From positions 4,065,501 to 4,129,500 of the forward strand of contig NZ_CP156079.1 of assembly GCF_040892545.1 (NCBI RefSeq): 64,000 bases of DNA, in the 5' to 3' direction. The position numbers were made by a program, and so were the translations under genes. This DNA is from Paracidovorax avenae. Its GTDB lineage: Bacteria > Pseudomonadota > Gammaproteobacteria > Burkholderiales > Burkholderiaceae_C. Within the stretch, counting starts at the first letter, position 1; each line of letters opens with the position of its first letter. Below, piece by piece: positions 10,436-64,000 of the stretch. The notes under the pieces are model-generated. The model saw only the letters and a program-made list of their open reading frames with translations, ran no database searches and was not told where the DNA came from.

Positions 10436-11191
10436 TCATGCAAAGGCGCGCAGGGCGATGCCCTCGCGTTCCAGCGACTCGCGCACGGCGCGGGCCATGG
10501 CCACGGCGCCGGGGCTGTCGCCGTGCACGCAGATGGAATCCGCGCGCACGCGGGTGGTGCTGCCGTCGATGGCCTGCACCGTGCCTTCGCGCACCAGCTG
10601 CAGCATACGGCGGGCCACGGCATCGGCGTCGTGCAGCACGGCGCCGGGCTCGCGCCGCGACACCAGCGTGCCCTGGGGCGTGTAGGCGCGGTCGGCGAAG
10701 GCCTCGGCCACCACGCGCAGGCCGGCGTCCGCCGCCCAGCGCTCCAGCGGGGAGCCCGCCAGCACCACCAGCGCCAGCGATGCGTCGATGGCGCGGATGG
10801 CGGCGATCACGTCGCGCGCCTGCCGCTCATCGTGCGCGATGGTGTTGTAGAGCGCACCGTGCGGCTTCACGTAGGTCACGCGCGTGCCGGCGACCGTGGC
10901 CAGGCCCTGCAGCGCGCCGATCTGGTAGATGACGTCGGCGACGAGATCGGCGCTCGCCACGTCCATGTTGCGGCGGCCGAAGCCGGCCAGATCGCGATAG
11001 GCCACGTGGGCGCCCACCGCCACGCCGCGCTCCTTCGCGCCGCGCAGCGTGGCCAGGATGCCCGCCGCATCGCCGGCATGGAAGCCGCAGGCCACGTTGG
11101 CGCTGGTGACGATGCCGAGCATGGCGTCATCGTCGCCCATGCGCCAGGCACCCAGGCTTTCGCCCAGGTCGCTATTCAGGTCGATATGCAT
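10436..11191 (-). CDS. pxpA: 5-oxoprolinase subunit PxpA (LamB/YcsF family)
   Basis: 251 residues. The start [16 protein letters not shown], then [38 protein letters not shown] and the late [12 protein letters not shown] are the diagnostic LamB/YcsF blocks; the Asp and His residues they contain line the metal-dependent active site. PxpA works with PxpB and PxpC to hydrolyse 5-oxoproline at the cost of ATP. It lies 28 bases before the DUF1445 gene and 59 after the MFS transporter, all co-directional. Confidence 0.9.
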
Positions 11192-13607: not shown

Positions 13608-14303
13608 ATGAGCACGCCCGACAAGATCGCCCCCACCTACGGCACCGAAGACCTGCTGATCAGCCTGTGCAATTCCGTCACGCGGGTGCTGAGCGTGGCC
13701 ACGCAGACGCAGCTGCACTACTCCGGCATGGTGCAGCGCATCAGCAAGACCTGCCTGCGCCCCGACATCGGCTGCTTCGTGCTGTTCGACGGCGGCTTCT
13801 CCGGCCTGGTCATCATCAACCTCACCAAGGAGGCGGCGATGGAGATCTACCAGACCTACCTCCTGAGCATGGGCATGTCGCAGGACGACCTCGCGAGCTC
13901 CTACACCTCCGACGAGGTGGCCAACGTGATGGGCGAATTGATGAACCAGGTGGTGGGCGACTTCACCGGCAAGGTGCGCCGCGAACTGCAGACGCACATC
14001 ACGCAGAACCAGCCCAAGATGCTGGCGCTGAACAAGCAGGTGATGCTGAGCGTGGACGCCAACCTCGACCAGCCCGAGGCGCGCCGCGTGACCTTCTACA
14101 CGGCCAAGAACCACATCTTCTACCTCGAGCTGGCCATCGACCGCACCGAGTTCATCAAGCTCTACGACTTCGAGCCGCAGGAAGCGCCGGACCCGGACGC
14201 GCTGCTGGCCCAGGCCGGCAAGGGCGACGCCCCCGCCTCCGCGCCGCCGGTCGCAGGCACCGACAGCGACACCGACGACCTGCTCAAGTCGCTGGGCATG
14301 TGA
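13608..14303 (+). CDS. DUF3334 family protein with CheC/CheX-like motif
   Basis: 231 residues from the ATG at 13608. The protein is soluble, and the first ~190 residues look like one domain. Residues 110-136 contain E-x2-N (GELMN, E110 and N113) followed after exactly 22 residues by Pro136. That spacing matches the CheC/CheX/FliY CheY-P phosphatase pattern, except that the preceding Asp/Ser position is Asn106. The C-terminal 40 residues are Ala/Pro/Asp-rich and end DDLLKSLGM, a short tail that could be a docking peptide. No chemotaxis genes are adjacent. The DUF3334 assignment is from recall of the family. Confidence 0.7.
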   Translation: MSTPDKIAPTYGTEDLLISLCNSVTRVLSVATQTQLHYSGMVQRISKTCLRPDIGCFVLFDGGFSGLVIINLTKEAAMEIYQTYLLSMGMSQDDLASSYTSDEVANVMGELMNQVVGDFTGKVRRELQTHITQNQPKMLALNKQVMLSVDANLDQPEARRVTFYTAKNHIFYLELAIDRTEFIKLYDFEPQEAPDPDALLAQAGKGDAPASAPPVAGTDSDTDDLLKSLGM

Positions 14304-34228: not shown

Positions 34229-34926
34229 CCGCCATGACCATGAACACGAACACGACCACCTCCTCGCCCCTGCACCACGTCCCGAACCGCACCAAGCCCC
34301 TGCCACCGCTGCGCGTGGGCATCGGCGGCCCCGTCGGCTCCGGCAAGACCACCATCCTGGAGATGCTCTGCAAGGCCATGCGCGACCGATACGACCTGGT
34401 CGCCATCACCAACGACATCTACACCAAGGAAGACCAGCGCCTGCTCACCGTCAGCGGCGCCCTGCCCGCCGAACGCATCATGGGCGTGGAAACCGGCGGC
34501 TGCCCGCACACCGCCATCCGCGAGGACTGCTCCATCAACCTCGAGGCCATCGACCGCATGCTGGCCCAGTACCCCGATGCCGACATCGTCTTCGTCGAAA
34601 GCGGCGGCGACAACCTGGCCGCCACCTTCAGCCCCGAGCTGAGCGACCTCACCATCTACGTCATCGACGTCGCCGCCGGCGAGAAGATCCCCCGCAAGGG
34701 CGGCCCCGGCATCACCAAGAGCGACCTCTTCGTCATCAACAAGACCGACCTGGCACCGCACGTGGGCGCGAACCTGGACGTGATGGAGGCCGACACGCGC
34801 CGCATGCGCACCACCGCCCAGGGACTCAAGCCGTTCGTGATGACCAACCTCAAGACCCAGCAGGGGCTGGACCAGGTGATCGAGTTCATCGAGAAGAAGG
34901 GGTTGCTGCAGACAATCCGAACCTGA
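34225..34926 (+). CDS. ureG: urease accessory GTPase UreG
   Basis: 233 residues. P-loop GGPVGSGKT, the switch/metal motif [10 protein letters not shown] (Cys-Pro-His), [10 protein letters not shown] and NKTDL (G4) define UreG. It hydrolyses GTP to drive nickel transfer. ATGA overlap with ureF. It is the last gene of the operon; the base composition drops sharply 20 bases after its stop. Confidence 0.97.
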
Positions 34927-34992
34927 AAAACGCCATACCAATTATTCAATTAACCAAAAACTTTCAAGCCGTCATCAAGGCCCCTTTAAAAA

Positions 34993-35541
34993 ATGTCAGC
35001 GAAATTAAAATATCACTTCGCGATTTTCACTTTTGCATTTTTAATTTCCGGCTGCGCTGCCCCAGCATTCACCAACATTGACAAAACAAAAATTACGCCA
35101 TTCGACGGAACGGTTAGGACGATTGAAATCATCGAGCCGATAGAATCCCCTATTGGAAAGATTGCAGCAATCGTTATGCCGGGAAAATACACTTCGAAGC
35201 TACAAGACAGCGAAGGAATTTATTTCATCGGAACCGTAAAAGCAATCGCCGTCCGCACAGTGAGGGATGATTATTTCGTTGACTTGGGTGGAGTCTGGGT
35301 ACCGAATGATGAAAAAGTCGCACCACGGGTATTTATTATGGAACAAGGGAATACAAGGCGAGGAAAAACCCTGGATGAGGCAATGAATGCAAATGTCAAC
35401 AACGACTTCTCTGCGCCGATAGGAATAGCACTGCTATCGCAATATCTTTTGAAGCAGTCGATGGGTGATGCCATCCTATTCCACCCTTCAACAGATATTG
35501 AGGCAACTAAAAAATTGCGCAATGCATTTTTCAAACCTTAA
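34993..35541 (+). CDS. AT-rich lipoprotein gene of unknown function
   Basis: 182 residues. MSAKLKYHFAIFTFAFLISGC is a lipoprotein signal with lipobox ISGC. The mature domain contains YFIGTVKAIAVRTVRDDYFV and FIMEQGNTRRGKTLDEAMN; I recognise no family. Codon use is AT-rich and unlike the flanking genes, suggesting transfer. It follows ureG by 66 bases but is unlikely to belong to the urease operon. Confidence 0.65.
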   Translation: MSAKLKYHFAIFTFAFLISGCAAPAFTNIDKTKITPFDGTVRTIEIIEPIESPIGKIAAIVMPGKYTSKLQDSEGIYFIGTVKAIAVRTVRDDYFVDLGGVWVPNDEKVAPRVFIMEQGNTRRGKTLDEAMNANVNNDFSAPIGIALLSQYLLKQSMGDAILFHPSTDIEATKKLRNAFFKP

Positions 35542-35779
35542 ATCAGATTTAGTCAATCACTTTCAAATATACCTATAGCCGACATCAATCAGATCATCTT
35601 AAACGCCAGCAAAAAATTTTGGCAACTTTTGATCCAAAAACCAAATCTTATGCAGCCTTGAGAATTCCTATTACGCATTCGTCCAGACACACAAGAAAAA
35701 TCAAATAACACCAGTAAAAGCGCGACACCCCTGATATCCAACAGAGCGCGAGAGACCGACTCCAGAGATTAGACCAGCA
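35542..35779. other. AT-rich gap without a recognised gene
   Basis: This stretch separates convergent genes. It has low GC and no open frame or clear hairpin I can support. Confidence 0.5.
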
Positions 35780-36334
35780 TCACTTAAGCCCTAGCCTACC
35801 CCGAAGAATTTCCTTCGTTGTTTGCAAAACGGTTTCATAGGCCGAGCAAATATCGTTGTCACCGGCAACACCGGTGTGCACAATTCTCCCTCGAAGATCA
35901 TAGGCACGCACAACGTCACGCGCTAGCTGTTCGCGATCGGCATCTTTCAATCCTACGCTGGTCATGACCAATTCGCGGACACGCCTACGTATTGAGGTTT
36001 CTTTACGGAAGTCTAATTCTCTCTGGAGTGACTCCAAAGCAAAGCGTTCATCTTCATTGAGCTCTTCACAGATACGCATATCGATCTCCAACTTCATCCT
36101 TTTCAACATAGAGACGGCAGATTTGTGTTTCGGCATATCTGGTGCAAGGATTTCCAACACCATCATCAATGTAAGCAATCGCGCCCGCATTGATGCCTCC
36201 AGGAGTTGCCCCAAATATAGCGACATCGCTGTTATCGTCTTTGTTTCCGTAATAACTCCATCCTCGCAAGTCGTTACCGCTTCAACAAACAGTGGAGCCA
36301 ATGCATCAAAAGCCGTAGATACATTACCCGACAT
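35780..36334 (-). CDS. HEPN-like C-terminal domain protein (possibly the 3' part of an interrupted gene)
   Basis: 184 residues. Mostly helical. Near the end, RAYDLRGRIVHTGVAGDNDI contains R-x4-H (RGRIVH) in the context typical of Apea-like HEPN domains, whose R-x4-6-H motif forms a ribonuclease site. It is in the same frame as the gene just upstream, separated by one TAG and nine codons. GGAGGG directly abuts the ATG, too close to be a good ribosome site. So it may be the C-terminal half of one interrupted gene. Base composition is foreign. Confidence 0.5.
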   Translation of the reverse strand: MSGNVSTAFDALAPLFVEAVTTCEDGVITETKTITAMSLYLGQLLEASMRARLLTLMMVLEILAPDMPKHKSAVSMLKRMKLEIDMRICEELNEDERFALESLQRELDFRKETSIRRRVRELVMTSVGLKDADREQLARDVVRAYDLRGRIVHTGVAGDNDICSAYETVLQTTKEILRGRLGLK

Positions 36335-36361
36335 CCCTCCGAATATGAGGAATTTTATATT

Positions 36362-36742
36362 CTAACCCGTTCTGAATACCGTATATCCTCCGGAATTCCC
36401 TAGACCATGGACTGGGCTATCGTCAGCCAAGGAAAAACTACTAGCCAAGTTTTTTCCCGCCTGAATTGGATTATTTGCAAAGGTAATGCTTCCTCGCTCA
36501 TGTTCAAGGATAAGCGGAGCATTGCGAACCAAAGCCACGTTCCACAGCGCGGCTCGGAAACGCGGAACAAAGGCTTCCGCGTCAGACTCAGTTGCAAAGC
36601 CCACGATTCGTACGATCATGTTCTTATCTTGCGACTCGAACGTTGCTCGCTTATCTCCTAGGCTCATTTCAAAAGGGGTATCGATCCCGGTTATGCTCCA
36701 TTCGGGCGGCGCCTTTACCAAGAAACGCAGGGTATATGTCAT
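36362..36742 (-). CDS. N-terminal partner of the HEPN-like frame
   Basis: 126 residues from the ATG at 36742, with AGGAGG seven bases upstream, so translation clearly starts here. MTYTLRFLVKAPPEWSITGI begins a small alpha/beta domain ending in VHGLGNSGGYTVFRTG and TAG. No family recognised. The frame continues without shift into the HEPN-like region after the TAG. Either an interrupted gene or a tight two-gene pair. Confidence 0.55.
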   Translation of the reverse strand: MTYTLRFLVKAPPEWSITGIDTPFEMSLGDKRATFESQDKNMIVRIVGFATESDAEAFVPRFRAALWNVALVRNAPLILEHERGSITFANNPIQAGKNLASSFSLADDSPVHGLGNSGGYTVFRTG

Positions 36743-37004
36743 GCGCGGACCTCCTCTCACTAGCTTACCCTTTTTCAGCTCCTAGCTCCAACGCCTATAT
36801 GGGTGCCAACTTAGATTCAGTTAACGTCGCTGCCATGAGCAAGCGCGCCAACGCCCCCGGTCTCAATCCCTTCGTGATGGGTAGCCGTTGAAGCAGACTG
36901 ATCAAAGTGGGGACGCTGATCGGACGCCGCGGCTTGCTGCGGTTCGATGTAGAGGGTGCAGCCACGTACTGATGACCCATGGGCTAGAATCTGAGAGTTC
37001 CCCT
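36743..37004. other. gap before tRNA-Ser; GC returns to normal
   Basis: Holds no gene I can support. At 36800-36891 a GC-rich frame on the + strand ends ANAPGLNPFVMGSR and stop, which looks like the tail of a lost chromosomal gene cut by the AT-rich insertion. The following ~110 bases contain no clear hairpin. Confidence 0.35.
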
Positions 37005-37092
37005 GGAGACTTGGGTGAGCGGTTTAAACCAGCAGTCTTGAAAACTGCCGACGGGCAACCGTCCGTGAGTTCGAATCTCACAGTCTCCGCCA
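37005..37092 (+). tRNA. tRNA-Ser (anticodon UGA)
   Basis: 88 bases with encoded CCA. Acceptor stem GGAGACT pairs with AGTCTCC; the anticodon stem-loop GCAGT-CTTGAAA-ACTGC gives anticodon TGA. A long variable arm, as in all class II tRNA-Ser, precedes the T arm GTGAG-TTCGAATC-TCAC. It reads UCA codons. The AT-rich patch lies on its 5' side, not the 3' side normally used by integrases. Confidence 0.95.
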
Positions 37093-37142
37093 GTTCAGCC
37101 CCCCAGCGGGTGCCGCAACGGTTGTGCTGCTGCGGCGGAAGC

Positions 37143-56902: not shown

Positions 56903-57013
56903 CCCCGCATGCTGCAGCGCAGCAGGTGCAATGGGTAAATCTCGATGGGCGCAGCACGGCCCCGGGCACACAATCCCCCACGGCACGTTCCAAGACCGCA
57001 TCGACTCCACGCC

Positions 57014-58957
57014 ATGCCTCTGCAGTCCTACGCCTCGCACGTCCAGGAAATCGAAGCCTTCGGCTCGGGCTACCCCACGGGCAGCCAGGACCGCGACCGC
57101 GCCGTGCTGCGCAGCTGGCGCCGCTGCATCGACCACCACCGGCTCGACCCGGCGCAGACCAGCGAAGCCCACATCATTCCCGATGGCGAGCTGCGCGCGC
57201 ACCGCGAAGAATCCGGGCCGCTGATCCACATCGCCCGCCATGGCCTGGAGCGCCTGTACCAGCAGCTCAAGGGCCTGGACTACGTGCTGCTGCTGGCGGA
57301 CCGGCACGGCGTGGCGGTGGACTTCCTCGGGCACGAGGCCGACACCGGCGACCTGCGCCGCGCAGGCCTGTACCTGGGCGCGCAATGGCGCGAGGAACAC
57401 TCGGGCACTTCGGCCGTGGGCGCCTGCCTGGAAACGGGCGAGGCACTGACCGTGCACCAGAGCGACCATTTCGACTTCACCCACACCCGCCTGTCCTGCA
57501 CCGCCGCGCCCATCTACGACCTGCGCGGCGAACTGGCGGCGGTGCTCGACCTGTCGCTGCTGCGCTCCCCCGCCGAGCGGGCCAGCCAGAACCTGGCGCT
57601 CAACCTCGTCGTGGCCGCGGCGCGGCGCGTGGAGAACGCCAACCTGATGGCGCAATCCGGCCAGGACTGGGTGGTGCGGCTCGCCCAGTCGCCCGATTTT
57701 CTCGATGTCGATCCCGACGCCTCCATCAGCGTGGATGCGCGCGGCCGCATCCGCGCCATGACCCATGCGGGCGCCCGCCTGCTCACGGCCGCCGCGCAGC
57801 TGGACTGGCGCCAGCGCCGCACGCTCATCGGGCAGCCGCTGGAGCGATTTTTCGACGTGGACCTGCGCCACCTGCCCGAGCTGCGCCGCCACCGCCCGGC
57901 GCAGGAACGCATCGTCCGCGCCCGGGACGGCAGCATCCTCTTCGCCCATGCCATGGAGCCGCAGCGCCGCACGCGCCACCTGAGCGCGCAGGCCACGCAG
58001 GCCGATCCTCCGCTGCCTGCAGCGCTGCAGGCGCTGGACACGGGCGATGCGGCACTGCAGGCGCTGCTGCGCAAGGCGGCCCGGCTCGCGCCGCAAACGC
58101 TGCCCATCCTGCTGCAGGGGGAGACCGGCGCGGGCAAGGAATACCTGGCCCGCGCGCTGCATGCCGCCAGCGGCCGCAGCGGCGCCTTCGTCGCCATCAA
58201 CTGCGCGGCCATTCCCGAGGCACTGCTGGAAAGCGAACTGTTCGGCTACCTGCCCGGCACCTGGACCGGCGCAACCGCCAGGGGCCGCGAGGGCCTGATC
58301 GCCGCGGCGCACGAGGGCACGCTGTTCCTCGACGAGATCGGCGACATGCCGCCGGCCCTGCAGGCCAAATTGCTGCGGGTGCTGTCCGAATCCGAAATCA
58401 CCCCCCTGGGTGCCCGCGCGCCGCGGACGGTGTCCGTGCGCTGCATCTCGGCCTCCCACCGGCCACTGGCCGAACTGGTGCGGCGCGGCAGCTTCCGCGA
58501 GGACCTGCTCTACCGCCTCAACGCCGCCGAACTGCAGCTGCCTGCGCTGCGCCAGCGCAGCGACCTGCAGGTGATCGCCGACCGGATGCTGGCCGCGCTG
58601 GGCGGCCACCTGCACCTGGGCGACGCGGCCCGCGCCGCGCTGGCCGCGCACGCCTGGCCCGGCAACCTGCGCGAACTGCACAACGCGCTGCGCTACGCCG
58701 CAGCCCTGTGCGGGGAGGATGGCGACGGCACCATCGGGCCCGAACACCTGCCCGATGCGCTGCGCGGCGCGCCGCCCGGCACCGCCCTGGCGGACGGCGC
58801 CGCCGGCGAACCCGCTGCACAGGCGCTGGAGCAACTGCTGGCGCAATGCCAGGGCAACGTCTCCGAGGCCGCGCGCCGGCTCGGCGTCAGCCGCTCCACC
58901 ATCCACCGCCGCATCCAGCAGCTGCAGCTGGGCGTGCGGCAAGCCCGCTGGCGCTGA
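57014..58957 (+). CDS. sigma-54-dependent activator, AcoR-like
   Basis: 647 residues from the ATG at 57014. N-terminal ~60-210 GAF-like sensor (GTSAVGACLETGEALTVHQS) and PAS-like segment, AAA+ domain ~340-560 with Walker A GETGAGKE (369-376) and Walker B TLFLDEIGD (436-444), C-terminal Fis HTH (NVSEAARRLGVSRSTIHRRI). The sigma-54 contact loop reads GTWTGA (415-420) instead of GAFTGA. Architecture is that of acetoin-type regulators. Divergent from the monooxygenase operon that has a sigma-54 promoter. Confidence 0.88.
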   Translation: MPLQSYASHVQEIEAFGSGYPTGSQDRDRAVLRSWRRCIDHHRLDPAQTSEAHIIPDGELRAHREESGPLIHIARHGLERLYQQLKGLDYVLLLADRHGVAVDFLGHEADTGDLRRAGLYLGAQWREEHSGTSAVGACLETGEALTVHQSDHFDFTHTRLSCTAAPIYDLRGELAAVLDLSLLRSPAERASQNLALNLVVAAARRVENANLMAQSGQDWVVRLAQSPDFLDVDPDASISVDARGRIRAMTHAGARLLTAAAQLDWRQRRTLIGQPLERFFDVDLRHLPELRRHRPAQERIVRARDGSILFAHAMEPQRRTRHLSAQATQADPPLPAALQALDTGDAALQALLRKAARLAPQTLPILLQGETGAGKEYLARALHAASGRSGAFVAINCAAIPEALLESELFGYLPGTWTGATARGREGLIAAAHEGTLFLDEIGDMPPALQAKLLRVLSESEITPLGARAPRTVSVRCISASHRPLAELVRRGSFREDLLYRLNAAELQLPALRQRSDLQVIADRMLAALGGHLHLGDAARAALAAHAWPGNLRELHNALRYAAALCGEDGDGTIGPEHLPDALRGAPPGTALADGAAGEPAAQALEQLLAQCQGNVSEAARRLGVSRSTIHRRIQQLQLGVRQARWR

Positions 58958-59028: not shown

Positions 59029-60237
59029 TCAGGGCTTCCAGTCGCGGAGGTTGCAGACCGTCCTGGTGCCCGGCCCCATGTCCTTGACCGCGCCAGCGCC
59101 AGGGGCCGGTTGGCAAGCCCGGGTCGATTGCTCGTTGTCCATGGCCGTGGAGCGCGCCCACACGGCAACCAGGCCGGAGTTCTCTATGGTCTGGTTGCAC
59201 CCCTCGAGTGCATGGAAGGCATGAATGGCGTTGCGCTCGAAGTAGGTCAGCCATTCGGCGTTCGGATCGGTATCGGCGAACCACTTCTTCCACCGCTCCG
59301 CCGAGCCGTCGATCTCGACGGTCCAGCCCGCGTCGCCGCGTTTCTGGTGGAACTGGTCGCTGTCCCAGTGCATCACCATGTACTTGTTCTGGTCGATGCA
59401 TTGCGGCTTGGTCAGCGTCGCGTAGATCTCCTGGGGATGGTGATAGTGGTAGGGGTACGTCGTATTGAACAACTGGACCGTCATGCCGATCTCTGCACCC
59501 ACGGTTTCCCCATCGATCTGTTTGATGCGCAGGTTGCCCCAGGGGCCCATGACCTCCGCGTAGAGATAGCCGCCGCGGAAGCGGTCGCTTCCCGCCGCCT
59601 TGTTGTCCGCATAGAACGGAATCCAGCCCACCGATGACCACAGGGTCGGCAGTCCCTTGATGCTGACGTCCCTGGCCCAGTGGACGGTCGTGTCCGTGCG
59701 GGACGTGATGGCGACGAAGTTCTCGTTGAGCTCCAGACCGGCCTTGCCCACTTCGCCGCCCATCTTCCTGTAGAAGTCCGTGAGCAAGGGGCGGTCGAGC
59801 CACCTGGCGGTGGCCGACAGGTTCCTCGTCTGCTCGCTGGGCGTGTACAAGGGGAATTCCTTGTAGTTCTTCTGCGTGTCGAAGCACGCCCTGGCCTTCT
59901 CCGGCTCCGCCAGCACGGCCTTCAGGTGCTTGGCCATCAGCTCCATGTCGCGATACTTGAGCACGCACCGCGTCTGCGCTTTGCCGGTCCGCGAGTCATA
60001 GGTCTGCACGGTCGCCTGCGCGGAGTCCTTGCATTGGCCGGTCGGCGTCTCGATGGTCTTCAGGAACTGGCCCAGGTAGGTGAGCGACTCGTTCCAGAAC
60101 TGGTCCACCAGCCGCTGCTCTTCGGGCGTGTACTTCAGGGGCACCACGTCGTCCTGGCACTTGAAGTCGGCCGCGAAGGCCTGGGTGGATGCGAATACGC
60201 TGCCCACGACGCAGCACACGATGCTTTTTTTGTTCAT
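59029..60237 (-). CDS. dddY: periplasmic DMSP lyase, DddY-like
   Basis: 402 residues, like known DddY (~400). Signal peptide [20 protein letters not shown] then FAADFK. The cupin-like core has H264, H266, E270 and Y272 in [12 protein letters not shown], and H339 75 residues after H264. From recall, the zinc ligands of DddY are two His in HxH, a Glu, and a His 75 residues later, with Tyr as catalytic base: the spacing is identical. It would split DMSP to dimethyl sulfide and acrylate. GAGGAG precedes the ATG. It follows acuI-, acuK-, acuN- and dddA-like genes, all acrylate/3-hydroxypropionate functions. An unrelated cupin remains possible but unlikely. Confidence 0.82.
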
Positions 60238-60312
60238 GTTGTCTCCTCGGAAACCTACAAGGAAGGCAGAAGGCGGTCACGCCTCTCCGCTGAACGGATA
60301 CTCCGTCCGGAA

Positions 60313-61320
60313 TCAGGAATCGACGTTGACGATGACCCGGCCACGCACCCTTCCGTCCAGCAGCGCGGGCGCGGTGGCGATGACCTCGGAAAGGCCGATC
60401 TCCCTGGCGATGTGCGGGATCTTGCCGAGATCCAGGTCGGTCGCCAGACGGTTCCATGCCGCGATCCGCTCCTCGCGGGGGCACATGACGCTGTCGATTC
60501 CTGCCAGCGTCACGCCGCGCAGGATGAACGGGGCGACCGATGCCGGCAGGTCCATGCCCCCGGCCAGGCCGCACGCGGTCACCACGCCGCGGTACCTGGT
60601 AGCCGCACAGACATTGGCGAGCGTGTGGGAGCCCACGACATCGACGGCCCCTGCCCAGCGCTCCTTCTGCAGCGGGCGCCCGGGTGCCGTGAATTCGGCC
60701 CGATCCAGTACGGTGCTCGCCCCGAGTTCCATGATGTACGGGGCCTCGCCCATGCGGCCGGTCACGCCGGCCACCTGGTAGCCGAGCCTGGCGAGTATGG
60801 CGACGGCGAAGCTGCCGACCCCGCCAGCCGCGCCGGTCACCACGATCTCGCCTCTGTCAGGTGTCACGCCGTGGCGTTCCAGCGCCATGACGCAGAGCAT
60901 GGCCGTGTAGCCCGCCGTGCCGACGGCCATGGCGTCGCGCGCAGAGAAAGCCGTGGGCAGCGGCACGAGCCAGTCGGCATCGACGCGGGCGCGCTGCGCC
61001 AGGCCGCCCCAGTGGCGTTCGCCCACGCCCCAGCCATTCAGGAGCACGGCATCTCCGGGCTGGTACATTGGGCTCCCGGATTCCTCGACCACGCCCACCA
61101 GGTCGATGCCCGGCACCATGGGGAAGGAACGGGCGATGGGAGCACGCCCGGTGATGGCCAGCGCGTCCTTGTAGTTGAGCGTGGAATGGCTCACGCGGAC
61201 AGTCACGTTTGCACGCGGTAGCTGGCTGTCGTCGAGCTGCTTCACGCTTGCGCGATCAGGACCGGGGCCGTCTTCTATGACGACAGCGGAGAAATGTGGT
61301 GGCATGGTACTGGGCCCCAT
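60313..61320 (-). CDS. acuI: acryloyl-CoA reductase AcuI-like (YhdH family)
   Basis: 335 residues; an internal ATG at 61305 ([13 protein letters not shown]) has GGGG nearby and may be the true start. Medium-chain reductase without zinc ligands: [50 protein letters not shown] and the NADPH motif [13 protein letters not shown] are the YhdH/AcuI signature. AcuI reduces toxic acryloyl-CoA to propionyl-CoA. It lies between acuK-like and dddY-like genes in the same direction. Confidence 0.85.
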
Positions 61321-61359
61321 CGTTGGCGAAAGGTCGGAGAAAAACCGGATGCCGATGCA

Positions 61360-62250
61360 TCAGCGGTGACGGAACACTGGGGCGCGCTTGGCCAGGAAAG
61401 CGTTCATGCCCTCCTTCTGGCCGTCGGTGGCGAAGGCGGCCTGGAACAGGCGGCGCTCGTGGAGCATGCCTTCGGTCAGGCCGACCTCCAGCGCGCGGTT
61501 GACGGCTTCCTTGGCCATGCGAACGGCCGGTGCGTTGTAGCCGGCGATGGTGTGGGCGGCCTCCAGCGCCGTCTGCAGCAGTTCGCCGGCCGGCACGATG
61601 CGCGCGACCATGCCGGCGGCCTTCGCTTCGGGTGCCGTCAGGCTGCGCCCCGTAAGAACCAGGTCCATGGCCAGGGCCTTGCCCACCGACTTCGTGAGAC
61701 GCTGGGAGCCGCCGATGCCCGGCAGGATGCCGAGCTTGATCTCGGGCTGGCCGAAGTGCGCGTCCTCGGAGGCGATGATGAAGTCGCACATCATGGCGAG
61801 CTCGCAGCCGCCCCCCAGGGCATAGCCGCTCACCGCCGCGATGATCGGCTTGGAGACGCCGAGCAGCTCGTTCCACGCCGCGAAGATGTCGCGCGCCTGG
61901 AGTTCGGCGAGCGTCTTGTCGGCCATCTCCTCGATGTCGGCGCCCGCGGCGAAGGCGCGGGGGCTTCCGGTGATGACGATGGCGCCGATGTTGTCGTCCG
62001 CGTCGAAAGCCTTCAGGGCATGGACCACTTCGCGGGACATGCGCACGTTCAGCGCGTTGAGCGACTTCGGGCGGTTCAGGGTGATCAGGCCCACCCGATC
62101 GCGGCGTTCGACGAGGATGGTCTCGTACCGTGCAGCTGGCGCTTCCTGGAGTGCTGGAACGGCATCGGCGTGGGCATTGACGGCCGCGGCGGGAGCGCTC
62201 CTGGCGGGCGCTTGGGCGGAGGCCTTGGACAGAGTGGCGGTATTGGACAT
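61360..62250 (-). CDS. acuK: enoyl-CoA hydratase AcuK-like
   Basis: 296 residues. The first ~40 are an Ala/Pro-rich extension; the crotonase domain follows ([20 protein letters not shown]). Oxyanion-hole segments are intact: [10 protein letters not shown] and [15 protein letters not shown]. Glu residues follow in the pattern of hydratases ([15 protein letters not shown]). With AcuN, AcuK is known to turn acrylate into 3-hydroxypropionate through CoA thioesters. GAAGGAA lies 10 bases before the ATG; 38 bases separate it from the CoA-transferase. Confidence 0.82.
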
Positions 62251-62288
62251 GCGGAGGTTCCTTCAGCGAATGGTTCGGATGGGTCGGC

Positions 62289-63521
62289 TCAGGCCGTCAG
62301 GTCGAGGCTCTCGGTGCCGGCTGCGGGCGCGTAGTCTCCGGTGCCGGACATCAGTTCGGCCAGGATGCTTTCGCGGTGCTCGTCCAGGCCGGGCGCGCGC
62401 AGGGGCGTGCGCGCATCGATGTCGGCGAACGCGCTCATCTTGATGGGGTTGCCTGCGGTGCGGACGGGTTTCTTTCCGGCCCCTTCGACCTGGATGATCA
62501 TGTTCCGCGCCTGCAGCTGCGGATGGTCGAACAGCTTGTCGATCGTGTTGATCGGTGCGCACGGAACACCGGCCTCGTTGAGGCGTTCGATCCAGTGCGC
62601 GATGGGTTCGTTGCGCGTAATGGCTTCGATGGCCTGGACCAGGGCGGGGCGATTCTTGCAGCGCAGGTCGTTGGTGAAGAACTGCACGTCCAGCGCCAGT
62701 TGGGGGTGGCCCAGGGCGTCCGCCATCAGCATGAAGAGCTGGTCGTTGCCCGCCGCGATGACGAATCGCCCATCCTTGGCGGCGAAGGTCTCGAACGGGG
62801 CGAGCGACGGGTGGCAGTCGCCCGTGCGCATCGGCACCTTCTTCTCCACGTCGAAGCGGGCGAGGGCTGTTTCCATGAGCGCGGCCTGGCAGTCCAGCAT
62901 GCCGATGTCCACGCGGGTGCCCTGGGCATCGCGCGTCCGCTTGTACAGCGCCGAGACGATGCCGACGGCGGCGAACAGTGCGGCGCTGAGGTCGCCGAAG
63001 CTGGTGCCGACCCGCGCCGGAGGGGCGTCCGGCCAGCCGGTCAGGCTCATCACGCCGCCCATGGCCTGCACCACCATGTCGTAGCCGGGAAGGTCGCTGA
63101 ACGGGCCGGTGTGCCCGAAGCCAGAAATGGAGGTGTAGACGAGATGCGGATGCGTGCGGGCCAGGCGTTCCGCGCCGTAGCCGAGGCGATCCATCACGCC
63201 CGGGCGGAAGTTCTCCACCAGCACGTCCGCCTCGGACAGCATGCGCTCGAGCAGGTCGCGGTCGCGCGGGCTCTTGATGTCCAGCGCGATGCTTTCCTTG
63301 CCGCGGTTGAAGCACATGAAGTAGGCCGACTCCTGGTCCACGAAGGGGCCGAACGCCCGGGTGTCGTCACCCGTCGCGATGCGCTCGATCTTGATGACCC
63401 GCGCTCCCAGATCCGCCAGCACCATCGTGCAATAGGGACCGGCCAGCACACGCGAGAAGTCGAGGACGGTGATGCCATCCAGTGGCCCTTTTTTGGGGGG
63501 CGAACCCGTGGTGGTATCCAT
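62289..63521 (-). CDS. acuN: class III CoA-transferase AcuN-like
   Basis: 410 residues. Family III blocks ITVLDFSRVLAGPYCTMVLA, LGARVIKIERIATGDDTRAF, LVENFRPGVMDRLGYG and YTSISGFGHTGPFSDLPGYD; the expected catalytic Asp lies in VDIGMLDCQAAL or DDTRAFGP region. In the acrylate pathway AcuN loads CoA on acrylate or 3-hydroxypropionate. AAGGAG 9 bases before the ATG. It begins 27 bases after the GMC oxidoreductase stop. Confidence 0.8.
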   Translation of the reverse strand: MDTTTGSPPKKGPLDGITVLDFSRVLAGPYCTMVLADLGARVIKIERIATGDDTRAFGPFVDQESAYFMCFNRGKESIALDIKSPRDRDLLERMLSEADVLVENFRPGVMDRLGYGAERLARTHPHLVYTSISGFGHTGPFSDLPGYDMVVQAMGGVMSLTGWPDAPPARVGTSFGDLSAALFAAVGIVSALYKRTRDAQGTRVDIGMLDCQAALMETALARFDVEKKVPMRTGDCHPSLAPFETFAAKDGRFVIAAGNDQLFMLMADALGHPQLALDVQFFTNDLRCKNRPALVQAIEAITRNEPIAHWIERLNEAGVPCAPINTIDKLFDHPQLQARNMIIQVEGAGKKPVRTAGNPIKMSAFADIDARTPLRAPGLDEHRESILAELMSGTGDYAPAAGTESLDLTA

Positions 63522-63548
63522 GATGAACGTCTCCTTGGTTGTACTGAT

Positions 63549-64000
63549 TCAGTTGCCCGCGAGAATCCAGCGCGCCGCCTTCTCGGCGATCATGAGCGTC
63601 GGGCTGTTGGTGTTGCCGCTGGTGATGGTGGGCATGACGCCGGCATCGACCACCCGCAGGTTCCGGACGCCATGGACCCGCAAGTGGCTGTCGACCACGG
63701 AAAGAGGATCCTGGGCAGGGCCCATGGCGGTGGTCCCGACCGGGTGGAAGATGGTCGTTCCGATGTCGCCAGCCAGCCGGGCCAGCTGCTCGTCGGTCTC
63801 GTACTGGGGGCCGGGCTTGTACTCCACGGGCTTGTATGGGGCCATGGCCGGTTGGGCGGCGATGCGCCGCGTCACGCGCAGCGAATCCGCGGCGACCTGA
63901 CGGTCTTCGGAGGTGCTCAGGTAGTTCGGCGCGATGCGCGGCGCCTTGTCGAAATCGCGGCTCGCCAGCGTGACCTTGCCGCGGCTGGTCGGGTTCAGGT
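63549..64000 (-). CDS. dddA: GMC oxidoreductase DddA-like (C-terminal part, runs off window)
   Basis: About 150 C-terminal residues. LNPTSRGKVTLASRDFDKAP and the active-site pair HPVGTTAMG (His) and TSGNTNSPTLMIAEKAA (Asn) are the hallmark end of choline dehydrogenase-type GMC flavoproteins. In DMSP degraders DddA, of this family, oxidises 3-hydroxypropionate to malonate semialdehyde. Its position directly before the AcuN-like gene supports this. The FAD-binding N-terminus lies outside the window, so choline or another alcohol cannot be excluded. Confidence 0.75.
   Translation of the reverse strand, partial: LNPTSRGKVTLASRDFDKAPRIAPNYLSTSEDRQVAADSLRVTRRIAAQPAMAPYKPVEYKPGPQYETDEQLARLAGDIGTTIFHPVGTTAMGPAQDPLSVVDSHLRVHGVRNLRVVDAGVMPTITSGNTNSPTLMIAEKAARWILAGN

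Follow-up and report, generated by a model that had tools for sequence, protein, structure and literature searches.

We report that a 64,000-nucleotide stretch of the Paracidovorax avenae genome (hereafter the window; positions 4065501-4129500 of a single contig of 5,625,582 bases) carries the left part of what is, with a probability that we put at roughly 0.87, a complete catabolic cassette for dimethylsulfoniopropionate (DMSP) and acrylate of the Alcaligenes faecalis M3A type, acquired as one 9.9-kb block. DMSP is made by algae and plants; in nature the climate-active gas dimethyl sulfide (DMS) arises chiefly from its cleavage, a process studied mostly at sea. The cassette comprises eight genes (dddY, acuI, acuK, acuN, dddA, dddC, lysR and acuR) and runs past the end of the window, and the adjoining 26.5 kb were analysed as well. 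The host had been described as Comamonadaceae-like from its DNA, in agreement with its 16S rRNA, whose best matches in a plasmid collection were to Variovorax paradoxus (95.5%) and Comamonas odontotermitis (95.2%).

Five open reading frames occupy the minus strand between 59029 and 64000, encoding DddY, AcuI, AcuK, AcuN and DddA (the last one with its 3' part only), with intergenic gaps of 75, 39, 38 and 27 bp from dddY to dddA. An earlier interpretation made from the letters of the window (the sequence-only reading) had proposed five co-directional genes with short gaps in the order dddA-acuN-acuK-acuI-dddY; frames, order and domain assignments (PF16867, YhdH/AcuI, hydratase, coenzyme A (CoA)-transferase and GMC oxidoreductase) all bear it out, and the set extends farther. 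Past 64 kb lie the remainder of dddA and, as that reading had expected, dddC (507 aa, upstream of dddA with 227 bp between them), followed on the opposite strand by a LysR regulator gene (327 aa) and a TetR regulator gene, acuR (211 aa). Positions in the own-genome locus carry the label L002, L002:4456-14351 being window-equivalent 58955-68850. The features are as follows.

59029..60237, minus strand: dddY, predicted periplasmic DMSP lyase of the cupin kind, 402 aa (5xkx/5y4k match, NF043049)
60172..60237, minus strand: putative Sec signal peptide at the DddY N-terminus (residues 1-22; MNKK...QAFA, then ADF), by eye
59422..59457, minus strand: DddY active-site stretch with Y261, H264, H266, E270 and Y272, from the alignment to 5xkx
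59221-59223, minus strand: DddY H339, equivalent to H338 of the solved DddY, from the same alignment
60313..61320, minus strand: acuI, predicted NADPH acrylyl-CoA reductase, 335 aa (NF051456)
61360..62250, minus strand: acuK, enoyl-CoA hydratase (putative acryloyl-CoA hydration), 296 aa (PF00378, function by context)
62289..63521, minus strand: acuN, class III CoA-transferase, 410 aa (PF02515, function by context)
63549..64000, minus strand: dddA, GMC oxidoreductase, 3' part in the window (PF00732, PF05199)
L002:9050-10717 (window-equivalent 63549-65216), minus strand: dddA as a whole frame, 555 aa
58955..64000, no strand: left part, within the window, of the 9,896-bp block that is absent in the sister genomes G400 (L026) and G386 (L028)
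56945..58957, plus strand: sigma-54 activator (AcoR-like), the left neighbour, with its stop codon at the block junction

The product of dddY matched the solved chains 5xkx and 5y4k with E values of 9e-218 and 2e-216, and its residues 7-402 align without gaps to residues 6-401 of 5xkx, 293 of 396 being identical (74%). The DMSP lyase domain PF16867 was assigned to it and it passed the DddY equivalog profile NF043049 (840.2 bits against a cut-off of 800), while remaining below the cut-off of the separate Shewanella DddY model NF053571 (286.5 bits against 650). We take the 5xkx chain to be the DddY of Acinetobacter bereziniae, the structure match itself naming no organism, and we likewise take His263, His265, Glu269, Tyr271 and His338 of the solved DddY to be active-site and metal-ligand positions. 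Together with Tyr260, all six of these positions are kept (Y260, H263, H265, E269, Y271 and H338 of 5xkx, here Y261, H264, H266, E270, Y272 and H339). For its substrate complex, PMC10686828 mutated Tyr260; in the same study, which names the species without the entry code, the dddY of A. bereziniae was cloned and found active, so that DddY outside the classic marine groups is already known. In a tree built by a quick method from 115 rows (the window protein, the solved chain, six named loci and the 107 of 120 listed database matches that were at least 380 aa long), DddY paired with P0001 (88% identical) in a 16-row clade that includes the solved chain (SH-aLRT 96); the tree carries a long-branch warning, P0066 sits in this clade on a very long branch, and cupin lyases of other families were not among the rows. 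The product that had been called DddY-like from the letters is by its sequence a true DddY, grouping with the solved chain and inside the DddY clade. Its N-terminus, judged by eye, looks like a Sec signal (charged residues, a hydrophobic core and AxA, then ADF), and a GAGGAGA ribosome site precedes the start of the gene.

A search for six exact peptide patterns across 84,980 species genomes, a procedure that detects close relatives only, yielded nine loci, from Accumulibacter (four), Thauera, Zoogloeaceae G21618-S1, Denitromonas halophila, a Rhodocyclaceae metagenome-assembled genome (MAG) and a Rhodospirillales MAG. In seven of the nine acuI adjoins dddY, standing before it in L004, L005, L007, L010, L011 and L012 and after it in L008; no acuI was found at the dddY locus of L009. 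In the Accumulibacter MAG locus L006 (L006:7102-9914) the acuI that precedes dddY is broken in two, its pieces being separated by 1.8 kb, as might follow from the insertion of an element. The dddY gene is split or partial in L009, L010 and L012. An acuR gene lies just upstream in five of the nine loci (L005, L007, L010, L011 and L012), and acuN and acuK, with close copies of dddC and dddA, are present in two (L005 and L011), the dddC match of L012 being distant (30%). These two loci, Zoogloeaceae G21618-S1 (L005) and D. halophila SFB-3 (L011), share acuR, acuN, acuK, acuI, dddY, dddC and dddA with the cassette described here, with identities of 85% for acuN, 75% for dddY, 66% for dddC and 59% for dddA, but they differ from it in having a single strand and the order acuR-acuN-acuK-acuI-dddY-dddC-dddA, and in showing no LysR match.

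AcuI passed its equivalog profile NF051456 (551.2 bits against a cut-off of 440) and resembles the solved AcuI structures 5gxe and 5gxf and YhdH 1o89; at the level of sequence, the DddY and AcuI scores rule out a chance resemblance. The own genome holds one AcuI copy above the cut-off, as does one of the 16 other genus genomes (G328), where no dddY or acuR match was found in the 4 kb around the gene. AcuN, AcuK and DddA match broad families (PF02515 at 411 bits, PF00378 at 253 bits, and PF00732 with PF05199 above cut-off, respectively), and their names were assigned by linkage and, for the first two, also by identity to putative counterparts in L005 and L011, which for AcuN is the gene after acuR (85%) and for AcuK the one that lies between acuN and acuI (80-87%). 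About 40 extra alanine-rich residues precede the hydratase domain of AcuK, much of this extension aligning in Denitromonas (L011) and not in L005, and translation may in fact begin later than listed. DddC passed TIGR01722, the methylmalonate semialdehyde dehydrogenase subfamily (672 bits against a cut-off of 448). All 17 genus genomes contain a GMC paralog that is 69-72% identical to dddA (the own second copy is G000:C1:415695-417365), whereas the DddA of the cluster is only 59% identical to that of Denitromonas; because of this difference the history of dddA may differ from that of acuN and acuK, the cassette possibly being a mosaic. A propionate route after AcuI was considered and is not claimed, the best PrpB match reaching 275 bits, below the cut-off of 354.

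The TetR protein passed the AcuR equivalog profile NF051457 (306.3 bits against a cut-off of 247) and keeps 12 of the 13 effector-pocket residues named for Halomonas AcuR in PMC13104084. Imperfect palindromes such as ATTAGAC-GATCA-GTCTAAT occur in all five acuR-bearing relative loci, both ahead of acuR and in the gap that follows it, and a weight matrix was made from ten such sites (nine of them different) chosen by eye in these five relatives. Scoring every 19-mer in 97,520 bases of the own genome, both strands included, placed the best two (24.0 and 20.1) at L002:10761-10779 and 10896-10914, both in the gap between dddC and dddA, and the third (15.1) at L002:13610-13628, just before the acuR start at 13638; the fourth (14.6) lay outside the cluster. 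When the bases of the block were plainly shuffled 100 times, the best score per shuffle was 8.4 at the median and 16.6 at most; the four of the six sister loci that were scanned as well scored no higher than 14.9. The two candidate sites before dddA stand out against the shuffles and the acuR site alone does not. Most likely, then, dddA-acuN-acuK-acuI-dddY forms a single unit under the control of AcuR, by either repression or activation. The boxes resemble the mutationally tested operator of Rhodobacter sphaeroides, TAATAGAC-n6-GTCTATTA, which lies over a leaderless acuR promoter and at which AcuR represses, acrylate being the true inducer of the operon (PMC3017554). Here the putative acuR promoter reads TGGACA, 17 bases, TAATAC, 7 bases and ATG, and it surrounds the third box, through which AcuR probably also controls its own near-leaderless promoter. 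The LysR protein, in which LysR domains were found, is encoded divergently from dddC and would probably control that gene; a dyad, TGTTC-N8-GAACA (L002:12560), that shares bases with the GTG listed as the lysR start and precedes a later ATG may be a LysR site, judged by eye.

Placing these genes into the published pathway suggests the following course of events. Exported to the periplasm, DddY would cleave DMSP, and probably dimethylsulfoxonium propionate (DMSOP) too, into DMS (or dimethyl sulfoxide, DMSO) and acrylate. The acrylate would then enter the cell, where AcuN would attach CoA to it and AcuK would hydrate the resulting acryloyl-CoA; DddA would convert 3-hydroxypropionate to malonate semialdehyde and DddC would convert the latter to acetyl-CoA, these four steps being drawn from gene context and from the pathway as published, while AcuI would clear toxic acryloyl-CoA. 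AcuR, presumably sensing acrylate or DMSP, would act on the five-gene unit through the two boxes before dddA. Such a set of activities would allow growth on DMSP, and import of DMSP would not be needed because DddY would act on the outer side of the inner membrane.

Of the 9,896 bases of the block, 9,153 belong to the eight genes, and no gap exceeds 227 bp. A copy of the left-neighbour sigma-54 activator with 89-95% identity is present in six of the 16 sister genomes, and these six were read at the site. The alignments to G400 (93.5-94.2% identity) and G386 (92.2-93.4%) carry on through both flanks and leave 26 bases between their ends, as against 9,896 here. The same neighbours adjoin in G407, where roughly 90 bases separate the aligned flanks and the right side has the lower identity of 74-87%; in G401 and G409 the left flank alone matches, with different DNA beyond, and in G406 the left flank is followed by 2.1 kb of unmatched sequence up to the contig end. 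The G+C content of the block is 65.9%, compared with 70.0% and 67.9% in the flanks. DddY was found in the own genome alone in each of the overlapping draws of genomes, all of which include the own genome (1 of 17 for the genus, 1 of 399 for the family, 1 of 399 for the order and 1 of 369 for the class), and had no match in 14 control genomes; since named carriers such as Accumulibacter exist, the draws indicate that DddY is rare, not that it is absent. Our reading of these observations is that the whole cassette was most likely gained horizontally as one 9.9-kb block. The opposite direction, an ancestral block that the sister species have lost, would draw on the fact that only six of the 16 sister genomes, those with a close copy of the left neighbour, were read at the site and that the neighbours adjoin in three of these only, and we hold it to be very improbable: against it stand the solitary occurrence of DddY in the genus, family and order draws, the membership of the named dddY relatives in other families, the base composition of the block, and the horizontal spread of dddY already proposed in PMC5395565.

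It may be argued that the cassette mainly serves acrylate or 3-hydroxypropionate of other origin and that DddY is a minor or vestigial passenger, an explanation that we regard as improbable and yet as the least improbable of the three weighed here. Six of the eight genes (acuI, acuK, acuN, dddA, dddC and acuR) handle acrylate, its products or its sensing, and acrylate is the compound to which the related R. sphaeroides operon responds (PMC3017554). Against it stand the intact dddY, with every one of its six active-site positions, an apparent signal peptide and a ribosome site, and the adjacency of acuI and dddY in seven of the nine relative loci (the eighth being the interrupted L006, and L009 having no acuI). 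That the main substrate of DddY is not DMSP but a different sulfonium or sulfoxonium propionate, for example DMSOP, seems to us less probable still: the DMSP lyases tested in PMC10686828 all cleave DMSOP too, but the DddY of that study was 2.2-6.2-fold less active on it than on DMSP, and the active-site residues here are the same as those of the solved DddY. Cleavage of DMSP by DddY, with use of the acrylate by the linked genes, remains our preferred interpretation of the block.

Several observations weigh against this interpretation. An importer, which had been expected in the form of a transporter in the extended cluster, was not found among the eight genes of the block; elsewhere in the genome one BCCT gene was found at a distance (C1:3749043), other transporter families not having been searched. 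Three of the enzymes clear none of the NCBIfam cut-offs, namely AcuK (395.7 bits against 396 for a generic hydratase), AcuN (392 against 522 for CoA:oxalate CoA-transferase) and DddA (534 against 605 for choline dehydrogenase). In the effector pocket of AcuR, His116 is replaced by Phe. The acuR box is weak, its 15.1 lying below the shuffle maximum of 16.6 and close to the outside scores of 14.6 and 14.9, and the candidate boxes have a spacing of 5, against 6 in the R. sphaeroides operator. The AcuR of Halomonas D47 reportedly raises acuI transcription upon effector binding instead of repressing it (PMC13104084), and the LysR protein had no match in the nine relative loci.

How the block came to its place was also considered. 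A plasmid origin received no support from a tblastn search of DddY against 72,556 plasmid records, which gave no match (records very near the own genome were possibly excluded), and a pattern scan of IMG/VR for viral carriage returned two stretches, neither of them a relative. There is no room for an integrase gene in a block so densely filled by its eight genes, with gaps of 227 bp at most. No tRNA or tmRNA was found in L002, and the 320 bp at each of the two block ends have no common word longer than 9 bases. As for the surroundings, the sigma-54 activator at 56945-58957 is 89% identical to a protein of Delftia acidovorans, its nearest named match, while for RibD of this genus the best 120 matches contain nothing between 93% and 71% identity; the activator gene, too, may have passed from one genus to another. 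The right flank (L002:15800-19001 and L003:1-9600) contains what by eye are chemotaxis genes (methyl-accepting proteins, CheA, CheW, CheR and CheB), the first part of which is common to sister species. Farther away in the window, at 34900-37100, the G+C content dips to 44-50% (35-37 kb) in a window of 68% G+C, beside a ureG-like gene recognized by eye; the dip holds three small frames (34993-35541, 35780-36334 and 36362-36760) and is perhaps a small foreign insert beside urease genes.

Among characterized systems the closest is that of A. faecalis M3A, where acuI lies immediately before dddY, with which it is co-transcribed under induction by acrylate, and where dddZ, dddR, dddA, dddC, acuN and acuK are also present (PMC3338564). 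The likeness to Alcaligenes that the sequence-only reading had proposed for an acrylate and 3-hydroxypropionate cluster holds by this account: the same eight gene kinds are present, counting dddZ and dddR as the regulators, although the comparison is one of description and not of DNA, the host family is another one, and here the genes form a 9.9-kb block whose place is empty in sister species. Halomonas D47 would share acuK-acuN-dddA-dddC-LysR-acuR, if the order listed in PMC13104084 is the gene order, and nearly the whole AcuR pocket, but its lyase is DddD and it has dddT, whereas here the lyase is DddY, dddT is missing and acuI stands between acuK and dddY; in addition, its AcuR binds the acuI promoter, while the AcuR-like boxes described here precede dddA and acuR (PMC13104084). 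The acuR-acuI-dddL operon of R. sphaeroides likewise joins AcuR, acuI and a lyase, with a similar operator and an acuR start near the promoter, and differs in its lyase (DddL), in the spacing of its operator and in being a three-gene operon without acuN, acuK, dddA and dddC (PMC3017554). The kind of cassette is hence already known, and what is added here is its extent over eight genes, the block and the vacant place that corresponds to it in sister species, the counts that show how rare DddY is, and the sites resembling AcuR boxes. A search of the open-licence literature, subscription papers lying outside it, found no paper combining DddY with Comamonadaceae, and the sole paper that it returned for Comamonadaceae, dimethylsulfoniopropionate and DMSP lyase together concerns methanethiol oxidase.

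A soil or plant niche, as the sequence-only reading had proposed, would be conjectural, and the nine named carriers (Accumulibacter, Thauera, Denitromonas and other Rhodocyclales and Rhodospirillales) do not point to plants. We suggest, tentatively and as less probable than not, that DddY-AcuR-AcuI modules may move as compact self-regulated cassettes among non-marine betaproteobacteria, and that an economy built on DMSP or DMSOP and acrylate may exist in fresh water, in sludge, in soil or on plants, where surveys of the sea would miss it; the cassette in P. avenae would then be a case in which one AcuR-controlled unit combines the lyase with the genes for using its product, with LysR governing dddC. 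The AcuR-box-like sites extend to dddY clusters, and they would predict which genes AcuR governs. An entire pathway apparently gained cleanly as a single block together with its own switch, in a genus whose sister species exist with and without it, may allow the worth of the pathway and the source of its substrate to be measured.

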